Shown here: positions 28,145 to 64,000 of the stretch, in pieces | Layout of the letters: each line of letters begins with the position of its first letter | How positions within the stretch are numbered: the first letter of the stretch is position 1 | NCBI RefSeq assembly: GCF_011769985.2 | Contig: NZ_CP039734.2 | Coordinates: 1,612,001-1,676,000 of the forward strand | Reading direction: 5' to 3' | DNA length: 64,000 bases | From: Sulfurospirillum diekertiae | Lineage (GTDB): Bacteria; Campylobacterota; Campylobacteria; Campylobacterales; Sulfurospirillaceae | Program-made: the position numbers and the translations under genes | Notes under the pieces: generated by a model | Database searches by the model: none | What the model was told of the DNA's origin: nothing | What the model saw: the letters and a program-made list of their open reading frames with translations, nothing else

Positions 28145-29164
28145 ATAGACCCGCTTTTAAAATCGACTTACGACTACACACTTCCGCCAGAGCTTATCGC
28201 CACACATCCGGTTGAACCCAGAGATGAGGCGAGGCTTTTGGTGTTTGATCGAAAAACTGGTCGCATCACGCACACGCTTTTCAAACATCTTTTTGACTTT
28301 TTACCCTCAGACATTGCGATTCTTCTCAATGACACTAAGGTCATTAAGGCACGTATTTTTGGCAAAAAAGAGAGTGGCGGTGAAGTCGAAGTGCTTCTCA
28401 ACGCCCCACTACAAGAAAATTGCTACTCTGTTTACATCAGAGGTCGTGTTAAAGCAGGAACTGAGCTCTTTTTTGATGAACATATGCACGCAAGAATTAT
28501 CGAACTCAAAGAGGATGGTACCCGTGTGGTTGCATTTTTTCAAGAAGGCAAAGCTTTACATACCAAAGCGCTCTTTGATGTACTCGAAAAAATTGGACAT
28601 ATTCCACTTCCTCCGTACATCAAACGAGAAGATACCAATGAAGACAGTGTGGATTACCAAACAGTTTTTGCTAAAGAGCAAGGTGCGGTTGCTGCACCAA
28701 CCGCTTCATTGCACTTCACCGATGCAATGTTTAAAGCGTTAAAAAAGCGTTACGAAACCCATTTTTTAACCTTACATGTAGGAGCAGGAACCTTTAAACC
28801 CGTCGAAGCGGAACACATCAAAGATCATGTGATGCACTCCGAGATTTACGCCATTCCTTCGCTTACATGTAAACTCATTGAAAGCCCCAAAAACATCTTA
28901 GCCGTGGGGACAACCGTCACACGAACGGTAGAGTATTTTGCTAGAACCAAAGTGCCAGTAGGAAAATGCGACCTCTTTTTGCATCCTCAAAATCCCCCTA
29001 TTCGCGTCAATCATCTTTTAACGAATTTTCATCTTCCCAAATCAACATTGATTATGCTGGTAGCGTCCTTTGTGGGAATCGAGAAAACACTTGCACTCTA
29101 TAAAGAAGCCGTCGAAGAGAAGTATCGCTTTTTCTCTTACGGCGATGCGATGCTAATTTTATAG
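28145..29164 (+). CDS. queA: S-adenosylmethionine:tRNA ribosyltransferase-isomerase QueA, apparent ATA start
   Basis: Transfers and isomerises the ribosyl part of SAM onto preQ1 at the wobble base of tRNA (queuosine pathway). Full-length QueA (339 residues) is coded from 28145: DPLLKSTYDYTLPPELIA, then THPVEPRDEARLLVFDRKTGRI, GRVKAGTE, GAVAAPTASLHFT, LHVGAGTFKPV and the end SYGDAML. The first 31 codons contain no ATG, GTG or TTG; the first normal start (TTG 28238) would cut off the conserved N-terminus. GAGGAA sits six bases before an ATA at 28145-28147, just where an ATG is expected. Either a rare ATA start or one G-to-A change/error. tatC ends three bases before. Confidence 0.88.
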   Translation: MDPLLKSTYDYTLPPELIATHPVEPRDEARLLVFDRKTGRITHTLFKHLFDFLPSDIAILLNDTKVIKARIFGKKESGGEVEVLLNAPLQENCYSVYIRGRVKAGTELFFDEHMHARIIELKEDGTRVVAFFQEGKALHTKALFDVLEKIGHIPLPPYIKREDTNEDSVDYQTVFAKEQGAVAAPTASLHFTDAMFKALKKRYETHFLTLHVGAGTFKPVEAEHIKDHVMHSEIYAIPSLTCKLIESPKNILAVGTTVTRTVEYFARTKVPVGKCDLFLHPQNPPIRVNHLLTNFHLPKSTLIMLVASFVGIEKTLALYKEAVEEKYRFFSYGDAMLIL

Positions 29165-29202
29165 TGTCAATCTTTCTTACGACACAATAACCTTTCTCGT
29201 TA

Positions 29203-29217
29203 TAACCTTTAAGGTTA
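29203..29217. promoter_or_regulatory. Perfect inverted repeat before the radical SAM gene
   Basis: TAACCTT T AAGGTTA, two 7-base arms around one base, 78 bases upstream of the radical SAM start. Operator-like; no regulator known. Confidence 0.35.
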
Positions 29218-29294
29218 CAATGACTAAAATGTAACTTCCCTAGACAATAAAACCTGCTTACGTAATCCAAAAAGTTGTACTAAAAGAGGTCATA

Positions 29295-30038
29295 ATGTTC
29301 ACTCAAATAGAAATAACAACGGTATGTAACGCAAAATGTTTTTACTGTCCTCAAGATACACTACCTCATAGCCATATGTCAGAGGAGTGTTTTAATCAGA
29401 TTGTCCAATCCGAAAAAAAGCCTACCTTGCTCTTGCTTCAAGGTACAGGGGAACCACTGATGCATCCTTCTTTTTGGAAAATGGTTATCTTTGCTAAAGA
29501 GAGAGAGCACCGTATCGGTATTATCACTAACGGTAGTATAGACATAGACCCTAAGCATCTTTTCTTATTAGATACTATCGGCTTTTCTCTGGATACCCTA
29601 GATGAAGCCCTTGCCAAACGAAGTGGCAGAACCTCTCCCTCTCAAACCCTTAAACATCTTTTAGCGTGCCATAGCTTAACCCCTAAAAAGATTAAACTTT
29701 ATGCCGTAAATTATGGGCAAAATCTAGAACCTCTTATAGCTTTTGCGAAAGAGCAGAATATTCCTCTTGCTATTCAACAGATACAACCTAAAAAGAGTTA
29801 TCAAGCACATTACACCACAGAACCTTTACCTTATACAACCTACCAATGTACCTACTTAGAAAATAAAAAGATGCATTACTATTTTGTAGATGGAACCAAA
29901 GCTCCTTGTTGCTTTATGATTGATGCTACAAAAGTTTTACCAATTAAACAGATACGGCAACACCTAGAACAAAAGAATGTTCCCCCATGTTGCACACAAT
30001 GTGGAGAGTTGACAGGGATAAAACGGCTTTATATATAA
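29295..30038 (+). CDS. Short radical SAM protein with C-terminal cysteine cluster
   Basis: 247 residues. The radical SAM cluster motif CNAKCFYC stands at residues 11-18, followed by the SAM-binding GTGEPLMHP and ITNGSI. The C-terminal third holds further cysteines (QCTYLE, APCCFM, VPPCCTQCGEL), like a trimmed SPASM domain that would bind one more Fe-S cluster. SPASM proteins usually modify peptides, but no precursor peptide was seen nearby. It stands alone, 130 bases after queA, with an operator-like palindrome upstream, in a patch that looks acquired. Confidence 0.72.
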   Translation: MFTQIEITTVCNAKCFYCPQDTLPHSHMSEECFNQIVQSEKKPTLLLLQGTGEPLMHPSFWKMVIFAKEREHRIGIITNGSIDIDPKHLFLLDTIGFSLDTLDEALAKRSGRTSPSQTLKHLLACHSLTPKKIKLYAVNYGQNLEPLIAFAKEQNIPLAIQQIQPKKSYQAHYTTEPLPYTTYQCTYLENKKMHYYFVDGTKAPCCFMIDATKVLPIKQIRQHLEQKNVPPCCTQCGELTGIKRLYI

Positions 30039-30106
30039 GAAATGAAATTCAACACAAAGGGGCACAAAGTGGTGAAGAAAATAGGGCGGCATAATCTAGA
30101 TAATGG

Positions 30107-30118
30107 TTTACATGTAAA
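30107..30118. repeat. Iterated palindrome TTTACATGTAAA, intergenic copy
   Basis: Exact copy 22 bases before the start of the unknown membrane protein, near its ribosome site. Confidence 0.8.
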
Positions 30119-30139
30119 GATAAAAGAGGAGAAAAAAAT

Positions 30140-30877
30140 ATGATAGGACTACTCATATTGGTTATCGGAGTTGGATATTACTATTTATCCAAATTCATTA
30201 TTAAAAGCACCTATGAAAAATACGGCACAAAAAAAGCCAAATACATTGCAACAGCAATCATGGTGCTGATACCTACTTGGGATATTGTTTTAGGTTATCC
30301 CATTTATGCGTTTTTATGTCTGACCAATTCAGGTGTAAAGATATACCAAAGCATAGATAATGTTGAGGGTTTTTATATTGGCGAAGAACATGGAACGTAT
30401 GGCGAAATACCGCCATTACCATATCATGGATATCGTTTTATAGATTATAAAAAGAGGAAAAATTCTAAAGAACCTTATAAATACTATAGGGTTTCTTGGG
30501 TAAATACTAATATGACTAGTGAATGTATTCAAATAGGAAATGCCTCTAGTCAATATGATCTTAATTTATATAAACATGGCAAATGTGTCATAAAAGAGGA
30601 AATACCTGAGAGTGAAGTAAGCCAGTGGGAGTGGGATGATCATAAAAGTATCAGAAAAAAGATTGTTCCCATCGTTAATATTTTTATCAGAATAACAGCC
30701 ATTCATGATAGAAAAAATAATGTGAATATAGCAGAAAGTATCGGTTACAGTTTGGATAGTAACTGGTTCTGGGGAAATATACAAAATATAACAAGTTCCA
30801 AAGGAGCATTCGCATCTTGTGGCAGCACAAATGGTATGTTAGAAAATACATTAAAACCAAAAAAAGGAGACAAATAA
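30140..30877 (+). CDS. Unknown membrane-anchored protein
   Basis: 245 residues that I do not recognise. Two hydrophobic helices lie at about 2-18 and 34-58; the rest is polar with many aromatic residues (YKYYRVSWVNTNMTSE, SEVSQWEWDDHKS) and one cysteine pair candidate (C-V-I, ASCGS). AGGAG precedes the ATG. Two bases after its stop begins a short frame that looks like the 5' end of a much longer partner gene, cut off. The pairing suggests a two-gene unit of a surface or secreted protein and its membrane partner; this is inference. Confidence 0.55.
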   Translation: MIGLLILVIGVGYYYLSKFIIKSTYEKYGTKKAKYIATAIMVLIPTWDIVLGYPIYAFLCLTNSGVKIYQSIDNVEGFYIGEEHGTYGEIPPLPYHGYRFIDYKKRKNSKEPYKYYRVSWVNTNMTSECIQIGNASSQYDLNLYKHGKCVIKEEIPESEVSQWEWDDHKSIRKKIVPIVNIFIRITAIHDRKNNVNIAESIGYSLDSNWFWGNIQNITSSKGAFASCGSTNGMLENTLKPKKGDK

Positions 30878-30878
30878 A

Positions 30879-30980
30879 ATGGCAACGATTAAAGAGTATT
30901 TAGATTACGCAGAGCTAGCCCAAGCGAGTTACGGTAAAATAAAGGGGTCAGGGCTAAACTTTAAACTTTTGAGCCATTGA
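30879..30980 (+). pseudogene. Truncated 5' remnant of a larger gene, cut at a 23-bp repeat
   Basis: Starts with ATG and a ribosome site (AGGAG 9 bases upstream) and reads MATIKEYLDYAELAQASYGK, which resembles the N-termini of large Campylobacterota proteins of unknown or lipase-like kind; then it enters GGGGTCAGGGCTAAAC, a copy of the 23-bp repeat (30948-30970), and stops after 33 codons. The repeat probably replaced the rest of the gene by deletion or insertion. Confidence 0.5.
30948..30970 (+). repeat. 23-bp repeat, copy 1 (plus orientation)
   Basis: Pattern TCAG-rr-CTAAAC-TTTAAAC-TTTT preceded by AATAAAGGGG. Four more copies flank the orphan gene at 61.8-63.1 kb. Best match is to 61600-61622 in inverse orientation (21 of 23). 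Confidence 0.65.
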
Positions 30981-30991
30981 AGCAAAAGACT

Positions 30992-31024
30992 CTCTCATTG
31001 TGAGAGTAAATCTTTACATGTAAA
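30992..31024 (-). terminator. Hairpin and palindrome copy after the flagellar-like gene
   Basis: CTCTCA TTG TGAGAG (30992-31006) followed on the minus strand by GTCTTTTGC, plus an exact TTTACATGTAAA at 31013-31024. Probable terminator of the minus-strand gene ending at 31049. Confidence 0.45.
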
Positions 31025-61033: not shown

Positions 61034-61471
61034 TTACACCCCAATATCTTCATTCCAAAGTTTTGGGTTATTGTAGATAAAAGCTTCCATCAATTCACGA
61101 CATTGTGGGTGATTGACGACTTTTACTTCAACACCTCTGGATTTCACGTACTCCTCTGGTCCACAAAAGGTTTGGTTTTCACCAATAACGACTTTTGGAA
61201 TTCCATACAGTAAAATGGCACCACTGCACATATCGCAAGGTGATAACGTCGAATAAAGCGTGGCTCTTTGATAATCACGAGCACTCAAACGTCCTGCATT
61301 TTCCAAACAGTCCATCTCCGCATGCAAGATGGCACTTCCTTTTTGAACCCTTCGGTTGTGACCACGCCCTACGATTTTACCGTCTATCACAAGCACGGCA
61401 CCAATCGGAATGCCACCTTCTTGTAACCCTTTTTGGGCTTCTTCTATGGCTGCTTCTAAAAACGTATCCAT
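61034..61471 (-). CDS. Cytosine deaminase, yeast FCY1-like
   Basis: 145 residues of the CDA/tRNA-deaminase fold. Zinc and catalytic residues: HAEMDCLENAGR (H and E) and SPCDMCSGAILLYGIP (two C). The segments LSPCDMCSGAI, VVIGENQTF and the ending NEDIG agree better with yeast cytosine deaminase FCY1 than with TadA or with bacterial CodA (an amidohydrolase). Predicted role: cytosine to uracil salvage. The start is one of two adjacent ATGs (61474 or 61471) behind AGGG. Monocistronic. Confidence 0.8.
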   Translation of the reverse strand: MDTFLEAAIEEAQKGLQEGGIPIGAVLVIDGKIVGRGHNRRVQKGSAILHAEMDCLENAGRLSARDYQRATLYSTLSPCDMCSGAILLYGIPKVVIGENQTFCGPEEYVKSRGVEVKVVNHPQCRELMEAFIYNNPKLWNEDIGV

Positions 61472-61572
61472 CATTTTTCCCTTTTAGTTATCTTAGATTG
61501 CTTTGCATTATAACTTCTTTGCACGGTTGTATGATACGGTAGCTAAACGTTAAGGAGTTGAGTTTTGATGTC

Positions 61573-61584
61573 TTTACATGTAAA
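61573..61584. repeat. Iterated palindrome TTTACATGTAAA, intergenic copy
   Basis: Exact copy 16 bases before the first 23-bp repeat. Confidence 0.8.
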
Positions 61585-61599
61585 GATAATGAAATTTCA

Positions 61600-61622
61600 A
61601 AAAGTTAAAAGTTTAGCCCTAA
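61600..61622 (-). repeat. 23-bp repeat, copy 2 (minus orientation)
   Basis: 21 of 23 bases match copy 1 at 30948-30970, inverted. Confidence 0.65.
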
Positions 61623-61773
61623 ATCTTTTATTCATTGAGTGGATTATAAGACATATTGTGCCAAAGGTTAAAGGGTAGAGTGCAAAAATTATTTAGGCAA
61701 AATTATAAAATATCTTAGAAGATTTCGAGTTATACGCTATTTAAAGTAGCATGTCACCTTTATTTTTTTCTGT

Positions 61774-61796
61774 AAAAGTTTAAAGTTGAGATCTGT
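61774..61796 (-). repeat. 23-bp repeat, copy 3 (minus orientation)
   Basis: About 19 of 23 match copy 1, inverted. It ends 12 bases before the stop of the orphan gene. Confidence 0.55.
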
Positions 61797-61807
61797 CCTT
61801 TAACTTT

Positions 61808-63118
61808 TTATTTGTATTCTGATATGGACGCATCCCTGAACCCATAGTTGAATGTGATCCAATCGTCATCTTTATCTTGGCATTTTTCAACTGAAATCGT
61901 TTCTATTACTCTTCCTTCGCGGAATTGTCGTAAAAAAAAGTCTTTTATTTTATTATTTCCTTCCTTTGTCATTTTTTTATGATCTGAATCAAATTTTTCA
62001 AAACTTAGAATACCAGCAAAAAGTTCAGTTACCATACGCGATGAAATTTTTAATTCACTATTTTTCATTGAAAATCCTCCATAATATGACAATCCTTTTT
62101 GTTTTTGATGTTGCAGATTGCTCCTAGCATTGACTGGCGTAGTTTCGGGAATTGGAAAAAAATTCTCTATTTTTTTAAGTTCATCACAAAAGGTTTGAGT
62201 TACCTTGAATTTAGCTTTTGAATTTGAATAAAATTCTCCTTTGAGAAATTTTGTAGATTTCAAATCAAATAGATTGCGCTTTTCCTCTAGAGACAAAACG
62301 ATAACGAAGCTTAAGGTAGTGTTGTTTCGAAATATTTCTTGGATAATATCGGATTGAGAGAATTTATTAGCGCCATTTAAATTATTATTTATCAAATTGC
62401 ATTCACCGTCACATATAAAAACCCCCATAATGCCTTCATATTTTGAGTTCCGAAGTTGCTTGGATTTTTTCTTTAAACTGTTATAGAGAGGATTTTTCGT
62501 TAAAGAATAAGGTGTTTTGTATGAAGCATGGTTTTCTACAGTGTATTTCTCTTTTGGATTAAAACTTATTGAGATTTTTATTTCATCTTTATTTATTTCT
62601 ATTTTGTACTCTTTATTCGGATTGTTTTTTATAGATTCTCTTAAAGTAAAAAATTCTTTTTTAATAAACTGAGGGATGTCTTTTTTTTCTGGCAACGCAA
62701 GCTTTAATTTTGTGTCACCATAATCACCCACCATTATGTGATCAACATCAATGTTGATACCTTTTAAAGTCAAACCATAGCTTTTAAAAAAAGTGTTCAA
62801 ACTTTCTCGGAAATAGTTTATGGGGTTTTCTTTTTCATAGAAATCATCACTTATAGAAGTAATATCAGCCACAAATGGTTCAATATATTTAGATTTAAAA
62901 TAGATATCTGGTTTGCTACTTCCATCGTATTCTTTTTCATGACTTACTTGTCCAATTTTACTTAATGCATTCAAGATTACAACTTCCCAAATAGTGTCAA
63001 GAGAATCATTACTTTGAAAATTTAATTTTTTAACATGATTATCAGCTTGTTCAGGGGATAAAAAATCACGGTTTTCATTTAGAATTCTTTGAATTACTCT
63101 TCGTGGAAATATGGACAT
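61808..63118 (-). CDS. Orphan protein, possible PD-(D/E)xK-like nuclease
   Basis: 436 residues that I cannot assign to a named family. The N-terminal third has a nuclease-like order: a helix with a conserved-looking acid (LDTIWEVVILNALSKIG), then SKPDIYFKSKYIEPFVADITSISD, where PDI and ADITS may be the acidic pair of a PD-(D/E)xK-type core (the usual ExK is not clear). The rest is lysine-, asparagine- and serine-rich with no repeats. The AT content and codon use (many AAA, AAT, TTT) look higher than in neighbours. It is single, bounded by inverted pairs of a 23-bp repeat, and has a palindrome hairpin upstream. A defence or mobile-element role is plausible but unproven. Confidence 0.5.
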   Translation of the reverse strand: MSIFPRRVIQRILNENRDFLSPEQADNHVKKLNFQSNDSLDTIWEVVILNALSKIGQVSHEKEYDGSSKPDIYFKSKYIEPFVADITSISDDFYEKENPINYFRESLNTFFKSYGLTLKGINIDVDHIMVGDYGDTKLKLALPEKKDIPQFIKKEFFTLRESIKNNPNKEYKIEINKDEIKISISFNPKEKYTVENHASYKTPYSLTKNPLYNSLKKKSKQLRNSKYEGIMGVFICDGECNLINNNLNGANKFSQSDIIQEIFRNNTTLSFVIVLSLEEKRNLFDLKSTKFLKGEFYSNSKAKFKVTQTFCDELKKIENFFPIPETTPVNARSNLQHQKQKGLSYYGGFSMKNSELKISSRMVTELFAGILSFEKFDSDHKKMTKEGNNKIKDFFLRQFREGRVIETISVEKCQDKDDDWITFNYGFRDASISEYK

Positions 63119-63158
63119 AATGTTTACCTATGCGTGATGTTACACTATTTATTCAAAG

Positions 63159-63183
63159 AATATTCTATCATAAATAGAATATT
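63159..63183. promoter_or_regulatory. Inverted repeat upstream of the orphan gene
   Basis: AATATTCTAT (63159-63168) and ATAGAATATT (63174-63183), perfect 10-base arms with loop CATAA, about 41 bases before the orphan gene start. Operator-like. Confidence 0.45.
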
Positions 63184-63254
63184 TAGGGATAATGGGGACA
63201 GTCTCGAATGGCATTTACTTAAGCAAAAAAACACTAAGTAAAGAAAGAAAAGTG

Positions 63255-63277
63255 GCAGAGCCCAACTTTTAACTTTT
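63255..63277 (+). repeat. 23-bp repeat, copy 4 (plus orientation)
   Basis: About 18 of 23 match copy 1. It ends 14 bases before an exact TTTACATGTAAA. Confidence 0.5.
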
Positions 63278-63290
63278 TAGCCTTAAAAGC

Positions 63291-63302
63291 TTTACATGTA
63301 AA
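63291..63302. repeat. Iterated palindrome TTTACATGTAAA, intergenic copy
   Basis: Exact copy; flanked by AAAAGC and GGTCTT. Confidence 0.8.
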
Positions 63303-63388
63303 GGTCTTATAAAAACAATAAGTCATTTACTCTATTGCAGATAATAAAGGGGACAGGCTACTTTAATAAAATTGAGCAATAAATATAT

Positions 63389-63400
63389 TTTACATGTAAA
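63389..63400. repeat. Iterated palindrome TTTACATGTAAA, intergenic copy
   Basis: Exact copy between a GGGGACAGGCTACTTT box (63349-63364) and AAAAGTAACCTCG (63404-63416), which together look like imperfect inverted ends around it. Confidence 0.8.
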
Positions 63401-63513
63401 AGGAAAAGTAACCTCGAATGATTCTAAATCCACTCAAAAAGCGCTTTTGGATAGTATCATACAAAAAGTTCAATAATATATTGTAATTCGCCAAGGCTAT
63501 AAGGAACGAGTGA

Positions 63514-63536
63514 TCAGAACTAAATTGTTAACTTTT
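63514..63536 (+). repeat. 23-bp repeat, copy 5 (plus orientation)
   Basis: About 18 of 23 match copy 1; 14 bases before an exact TTTACATGTAAA, the same spacing as copy 4. Confidence 0.5.
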
Positions 63537-63549
63537 TATCATTAAAATT

Positions 63550-63561
63550 TTTACATGTAAA
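63550..63561. repeat. Iterated palindrome TTTACATGTAAA, intergenic copy
   Basis: Exact copy 24 bases past the sirtuin stop on its strand. Confidence 0.8.
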
Positions 63562-63585: not shown

Positions 63586-64000
63586 TCACCCTTGTAAGAA
63601 CCTCTCCACATCCCCCACTATCTCTTCCACCGCCTCAGTCGCTTTTTGATGCAACACTTTCGTATACACCCGCTCATTAATCGCATCACTTTTCTCTAAA
63701 TTATTAAGAATGGAAACCTTTACATGTAAAGCGAAATGGTCCATCGCTACGACGTTTCCACTTGAACCAATGATGACTAAAAACTGGCACTCTTCCATCG
63801 CTTCATAGAGGTGTTCGTACATTGGGGCGGCTTCGCCGAAGAAGACAATGTCGGGGCGTAGAAAGCCGCCACAGCTTTTACATGTAACGTCTCGCTCTTG
63901 CTTGGCGTAGCCGATAAGTTCAGTTTCACCGCACTTTTCACAGCGGAGTCTGGGCAAAAAGCCGTGCAAGTGTAAAACGTCCTTGCAGCCTGCTCGCTCG
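63586..64000 (-). CDS. cobB: SIR2-family NAD-dependent deacylase (sirtuin), N-terminus outside the window
   Basis: The frame is open to the window edge; 137 C-terminal residues are visible. They read ERAGCKDVLHLHGFLPRLRCEKCG (catalytic His in LHLHG), the zinc pairs CEKC and CKSC, RPDIVFFGEAAPMYEHLYEAM and VIIGSSGNVVAM, all sirtuin landmarks. The enzyme removes acetyl or other acyl groups from lysines using NAD. Two palindrome copies are in it, read as VTCK (63877) and LHVK (63719), the second inside the otherwise conserved strand region near the NAD site. Confidence 0.88.
   Translation of the reverse strand, partial: ERAGCKDVLHLHGFLPRLRCEKCGETELIGYAKQERDVTCKSCGGFLRPDIVFFGEAAPMYEHLYEAMEECQFLVIIGSSGNVVAMDHFALHVKVSILNNLEKSDAINERVYTKVLHQKATEAVEEIVGDVERFLQG

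Follow-up and report, generated by a model that had tools for sequence, protein, structure and literature searches.

The genome of Sulfurospirillum diekertiae contains a gene for a 436-residue protein that lies between inverted copies of a short repeat. This arrangement raises the question whether the repeats delimit an element that carried the gene to this site, and what the protein does. The window analysed comprises 64 kb, positions 1,612,001-1,676,000 of a 2.74-Mb contig; its features are listed in Table 1. The repeat, here F1, is a unit of 27 nt with the GGGG head counted in. In the initial annotation three copies were placed at 63255, 63514 and 30948, which are the copies 63251, 63510 and 30944 minus this head. 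Sites were scored with a weight matrix trained on 11 F1 copies, none of them from the focus locus. The five copies claimed initially are precisely the five best matrix matches in the window, the sixth-ranked site reaching 8.6 bits only, and the claimed inverted pairs around the gene were recovered as two minus copies on the left and two plus copies on the right. Simulation of 60 sequences of 64 kb with the dinucleotide composition of the window gave best scores with a mean of 11.8 and a maximum of 19.4 bits; thus the inner left copy is marginal on its own, whereas chance does not account for the remaining three focus copies. A second repeat family, F2 (GGGGACAGGCTACTTT), adds a further inverted pair. 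The fifth F1 copy belongs to a 1.85-kb stretch (29159-31012) that the other genome of the species lacks and whose right edge is a copy of the palindrome TTTACATGTAAA at 31013.

Table 1. Features of the gene slot and the distant F1 copy, in window coordinates
Feature	Position	Strand	Basis and remarks
F1, fifth copy	30944..30970	+	42.9 bits, not an independent score as the copy was in the training set; within a 33-codon gene stub starting at 30880
Cytidine/deoxycytidylate deaminase-family gene, left slot edge	61034..61474	-	Pfam PF00383; kept beside the slot in congeners
Inverted dimer centred on TTTACATGTAAA, its inner half being the outer left F1 copy	~61540-61626		Alignment and fold
F1, outer left copy (TIR-type repeat)	61600..61626	-	29.2 bits; head towards cargo
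F2 (GGGGACAGGCTACTTT family, TIR-type repeat), left copy	61741..61764	-	92% complementary to 63343-63366
F1, inner left copy, weakest	61774..61800	-	17.3 bits
Candidate PD-(D/E)xK-like nuclease of an unnamed family, 436 aa, single-gene cargo	61808..63118	-	ORF, homologues, AF2 model
GGGGACAG-type fragment upstream of the cargo gene	63189..63204	+	ATAATGGGGACAGTCT, 88% identity to 63344-63359
F1, inner right copy	63251..63277	+	22.8 bits; TTTACATGTAAA downstream, TTACATGTAA begins 14 nt beyond the tail
F2, right copy	63343..63414	+	~70-nt family dispersed through the genus, many genus matches
F1, outer right copy (TIR-type repeat)	63510..63536	+	25.9 bits; head towards cargo
Sir2-family deacylase gene, right slot edge	63586..63999	-	Pfam PF02146; runs off the window; kept in congeners

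The identity of the repeat became apparent from its distribution in the genome. About 15 copies of GGGGTCAGGGCTAAACTTTTAACTTTT in various states of decay are present. The sole Y1_Tnp gene of the genome (PF01797, C1:315364-315690) has inverted F1 copies on its flanks, 315256 on the plus and 316075 on the minus strand. These are perfect or one-off copies (44.6-45.7 bits), whereas those at the focus locus have decayed to 17-29 bits, and the heads of the former point outwards from the transposase gene, whereas those around the cargo gene point inwards. The transposase-flanking copies contain GGGGTCAG, which fits the GGGGWSAS motif. The transposase of 255 aa, read from its translation, has the motifs NHYHI (HuH) and YIESNP (Y---NP), a C-terminal TDIAKKLSLSVAGVSKIL stretch and a putative HTH; against the NCBIfam model of REP-associated tyrosine transposases it scored under the model's cut-off. 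Its gene lies beside gyrA; of the 24 genomes in the genus, 22 have it at this gyrA-linked place. Most of the remaining F1 copies in the genome are single and intergenic. A repeat-rich region (L005:8000-12200; C1:1077999-1082199) has genes for GNAT and GGDEF proteins between the heads-out copies 9021 (plus) and 10920 (minus), and synteny with other genomes breaks there at the repeats.

In the accessible text of PMC3733652 and PMC6006769, TIRYTs are described as bordered by terminal inverted repeats that contain a GGGGWSAS motif, not by GTAG hairpins, and subclass 2.1 as having HuH and Y---NP motifs with a C-terminal HTH-like extension (PMC6006769). The transposase studied here shares with the TIRYTs or TIRtrons (RAYT group 1, TnpA-REP subclass 2.1), as far as those texts define them, the Y1 HuH type with HYH and Y-xxx-NP, the HTH-resembling C-terminal extension, the heads-out inverted repeats fitting GGGGWSAS and a moderate-sized family of dispersed copies. 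Judged from these sequence features, the RAYT-like transposase is a TIRYT and F1 its GGGGWSAS-type terminal repeat. Unlike in the described systems, solo copies stand heads-in at the two edges of a slot with variable genes, and TTTACATGTAAA accompanies many solo copies at a fixed distance; neither trait was found described in the accessible text of the two papers. The initial annotation had compared the repeat with REP/RAYT-like mobile repeats. The connection to a RAYT held, with exact copies flanking the only Y1 transposase, and as in the REPs and REPINs of classical RAYTs an intergenic dispersed repeat is tied to a RAYT-like gene and one edge copy sits in an inverted dimer. A classical REP in the strict sense was rejected: F1 has no GTAG tag and the 27-mer folds to 0 kcal/mol. 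Lacking a structure of its own, F1 is a TIR-type repeat rather than a classical REP.

The deaminase and Sir2 genes enclose a slot with changing content. The gap between them ranged in 12 congeners from 74 bp (G020) to 6.1 kb, and 11 of the 12 hold different cargo, among them an MCP gene with a HepT-like RNase gene (G015), a type IIG MmeI-like enzyme with helicase (G019), a SieB-like gene (G031), BRO-N/PDC-S13 (G014), IS110 with a NosZ-like gene (G022) and DUF2339 (G028). The cargo of G016 (L024:1100-2731) codes for 543 aa without a Pfam or PADLOC match, in which RNAISH resembles a HEPN motif by eye. At the slot of G017 (L029, G017:C1:2027500-2036700) a Sir2-like gene fragment occurs twice, 6 kb apart. 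Conserved flanking genes and variable cargo including several defence-like genes are known from bacterial defence-island hotspots; unlike these, the slot is small, takes a single cassette and is edged by transposase-end repeats, and several of its cargoes are non-defence genes. The left outer repeat is common to this genome and six congeners (G016, G017, G018, G019, G022, G031), the right one to this genome and three (G016, G022, G028). Across the genomes sharing an outer repeat, seven copies on the left and four on the right, the mean identity at the left edge was 78% outside, 82% within and 63% just inside the repeat, and at the right edge 68%, 72% and 58%, respectively, against 60% for shuffled sequences. 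The conserved DNA thus stops at the repeat heads, where unrelated cargo starts. An inverted dimer centred on TTTACATGTAAA, with the left copy as its inner half, is present in this genome and in at least three congeners (G017, G018, G022). A precise empty site was not seen; the 74-bp gap of G020 contains no repeat.

How the repeats came to frame the gene can be explained in several ways. According to the initial annotation the gene could be the cargo of a non-autonomous element, whose ends would be the inverted repeats and which the TIRYT would move as a whole. The inverted pairs on either side of the gene and the functional-looking TIRYT with intact repeats elsewhere in the genome speak for this model, which was nevertheless rejected: the heads-in orientation is opposite to that of the parent element, the scores of the focus copies are far below those of the near-perfect repeats of the TIRYT, and the outer copies are common to relatives with other cargo. 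Neither a second copy of the gene nor of the gene-plus-repeats unit was found in the genome. Since the outer repeats are shared and stand heads-in, not heads-out, they predate the cargo now in the slot and do not constitute the ends of a delivering element; transport in such a unit is highly improbable. Scattered intergenic repeats could also flank the gene by accident, as the mostly single, intergenic copies elsewhere in the genome would suggest. Four of the five copies in the window are, however, located within 2 kb, and in G016 and G022 unrelated cargo at this site is likewise framed heads-in by the repeats. Coincidence of the framing at the slot is largely refuted and, as an account of the locus, unlikely. 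In another model the TIRYT cuts at the repeat heads and actively opens the slot, and incoming DNA is joined exactly there. In several genomes conservation stops at the head of the left as well as of the right repeat, and elsewhere in the genome the syntenic match to the second genome of the species reaches just to the end of a repeat (query 1-1048, repeat 1022-1048), with matches in two congeners starting inside the repeat (query 1025). The slot repeats are degenerate, though, and the edges could also simply mark where the conserved promoter region ends, so that active opening is considered fairly unlikely.

The gene itself had been regarded as an orphan, a view that did not survive the homology searches. 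A tblastn search against plasmids revealed five full-length homologues with 28-30% identity and a profile scan 15 further ones in Proteobacteria; two of the five plasmid records represent the same Sinorhizobium gene, leaving 19 distinct homologues, all from Proteobacteria, full-length or nearly so and 25-30% identical to the query. Among each other the homologues are 40-79% identical, yet only 26-29% to the 436-aa protein, which thus represents a deep branch. No homologue was obtained in single-sequence scans of genome collections and viral contigs, in the profile scan of viral contigs or in searches of phage records, and sequence searches in Pfam, NCBIfam, PADLOC and PDB gave no usable match, the PADLOC defence models nothing up to an E value of 5. 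The gene is present in one of 397 genomes of the phylum, is absent from the species' other genome and has a GC content of 29.5% in comparison to 38% in the window, which together indicate a lateral gain.

Neighbours of the homologues matched defence systems with strong scores: type IIG RM, AbiE, MkoA/B/C, Lamassu, PD-T4-6, Dsr2, PD-Lambda-3 and several PDC families. Next to the plasmid homologues, SIR2, DUF262, DUF4238 and DUF2971 proteins were found. A set of 44 window proteins, examined as control, yielded generic matches only, this control being small, a single 64-kb region of another organism. A recurrent partner gene was not detected, none being present in more than three of the 19 homologue loci, and the gene hence probably works alone. 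The defence function suspected initially gains plausibility from this neighbourhood of known systems. An unnamed family scattered in Proteobacteria beside diverse anti-phage systems thereby obtains a candidate role, that of a stand-alone nuclease-type defence gene.

A nuclease had been suspected from the N-terminus, and structure prediction upheld this in part. An alignment-based AF2 model reached a mean pLDDT of 75, the single-sequence model with a pLDDT of 37 was unusable. Foldseek searches of PDB and viral models gave nothing significant (best E 0.03), with several PD-(D/E)xK entries among the weak viral matches. The PDB folds listed by VIA-align, to which the comparison extends, are rich in PD-(D/E)xK nucleases: 4g6v had a Z of 8.2 (129 residues, 3.7 A), with lower values for PspGI (5.7), cap-snatching endonucleases (5.6), R2 endonuclease (5.6), FokI (5.1) and BsaXI (5.1). 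Unrelated acetyl-CoA carboxylase chains stand among these nuclease rows with a Z of ~7, and according to the program's own note unrelated models commonly reach a best Z of 7-8; the resemblance to nucleases is thus suggestive only. The order of elements in the model, helix 38-53, strands 57-60, 72-75 and 82-89, helix 210-224 and strand 230-237, fits the PD-(D/E)xK core. The predicted alpha-beta-beta-beta-alpha-beta order and the invariant E, PD and D in the expected places are shared with CdiA-CT of 4g6v, FokI, PspGI, the arenavirus/bunyavirus cap-snatching endonucleases and the R2 endonuclease. In contrast to these, the 436-aa protein has a threonine for the lysine, an insertion of ~120 residues between core strand and helix and an additional C-terminal region, and a Pfam or PDB match at the sequence level is lacking. 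In the model, the N-terminal core suggestively resembles PD-(D/E)xK nucleases.

All 15 aligned sequences agree at the residues E45, E61, P70, D71, D85, T87, K218 and Q221, with D85-x-T87 placing T87 at the position of the usual D/ExK lysine. In cap-snatching enzymes the place of the motif lysine is taken by another lysine. By analogy, K218, moved to the following helix, could replace it. Alternatively, the fold may have lost catalysis, or the protein may be a nuclease of another fold, with a defence role that is indirect or absent. The exchange of the motif lysine for T87 and the weak statistics of the fold searches are in line with such a loss; the conservation of the eight residues despite 26-29% identity is, however, what is expected of an active site. 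We consider this a possible outcome, but the less probable one.

At a probability of roughly 60%, the locus is best explained as an accessory-gene slot edged by pre-existing TIRYT repeats, with a laterally gained, probably stand-alone PD-(D/E)xK-like defence gene as the present cargo. The decayed F1 copies at the edges, partly as inverted dimers, would stem from the resident, vertically kept TIRYT, and the outer ones would be older residents of the site than the present cargo. The gene for the PD-(D/E)xK-like protein would have been acquired laterally, probably as a stand-alone gene, and cargo would be swapped by ordinary recombination in the conserved flanks, so that the repeats mark the edges and do not carry the gene. 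The protein most likely cuts invading nucleic acid in a metal-dependent manner via E45/E61, D71, D85 and K218, by which the gene would act against phage or plasmids. Several points speak against this explanation: the best Foldseek E of 0.03 and Z values of 7-8 that are common in unrelated models, the possible catalytic death with T87 in place of the motif lysine, a defence-neighbour control from one 64-kb region of another organism, slot cargo of non-defence type (MCP, DUF2339, NosZ-like) and edges defined by only seven left and four right outer-repeat copies. Here TIRYT repeats mark both edges of a slot in which related bacteria exchange genes, which offers a place to test for a role of these repeats.

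The palindrome TTTACATGTAAA accompanies many of the repeats. It occurs 791 times in the genome in comparison to a single occurrence of the reversed control; in the 23 further genomes of the genus its count ranges from 14 to 792. Thirteen of its 21 copies in the window are intergenic (e.g., 61573, 63291, 63389 and 63550), although the window is 89% coding. By these counts TTTACATGTAAA behaves like a highly iterated palindrome; no paper describing it as a bacterial repeat emerged from a full-text literature search. A more far-reaching proposal is that the gyrA-linked, vertically kept TIRYT provides, together with its repeats, a platform for gene exchange, with the heads as cleavage points for the swapping of accessory, often anti-phage genes and TTTACATGTAAA as part of the recognised site; we rate it as quite improbable. 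The F1 copies adjoining the transposase gene lack the palindrome. Of 35 distinct repeat contexts, some of them orthologous, 17 have TTTACATGTAAA no more than about 60 nt from the tail, ten of these at 14-16 nt past it, and one has the palindrome similarly close to the head. Solo repeats with a tail-side palindrome are exemplified by 61600-61584, 63277-63291 and 63536-63550 in the window and by L006:4059, L026:411 and L070:1890 elsewhere.
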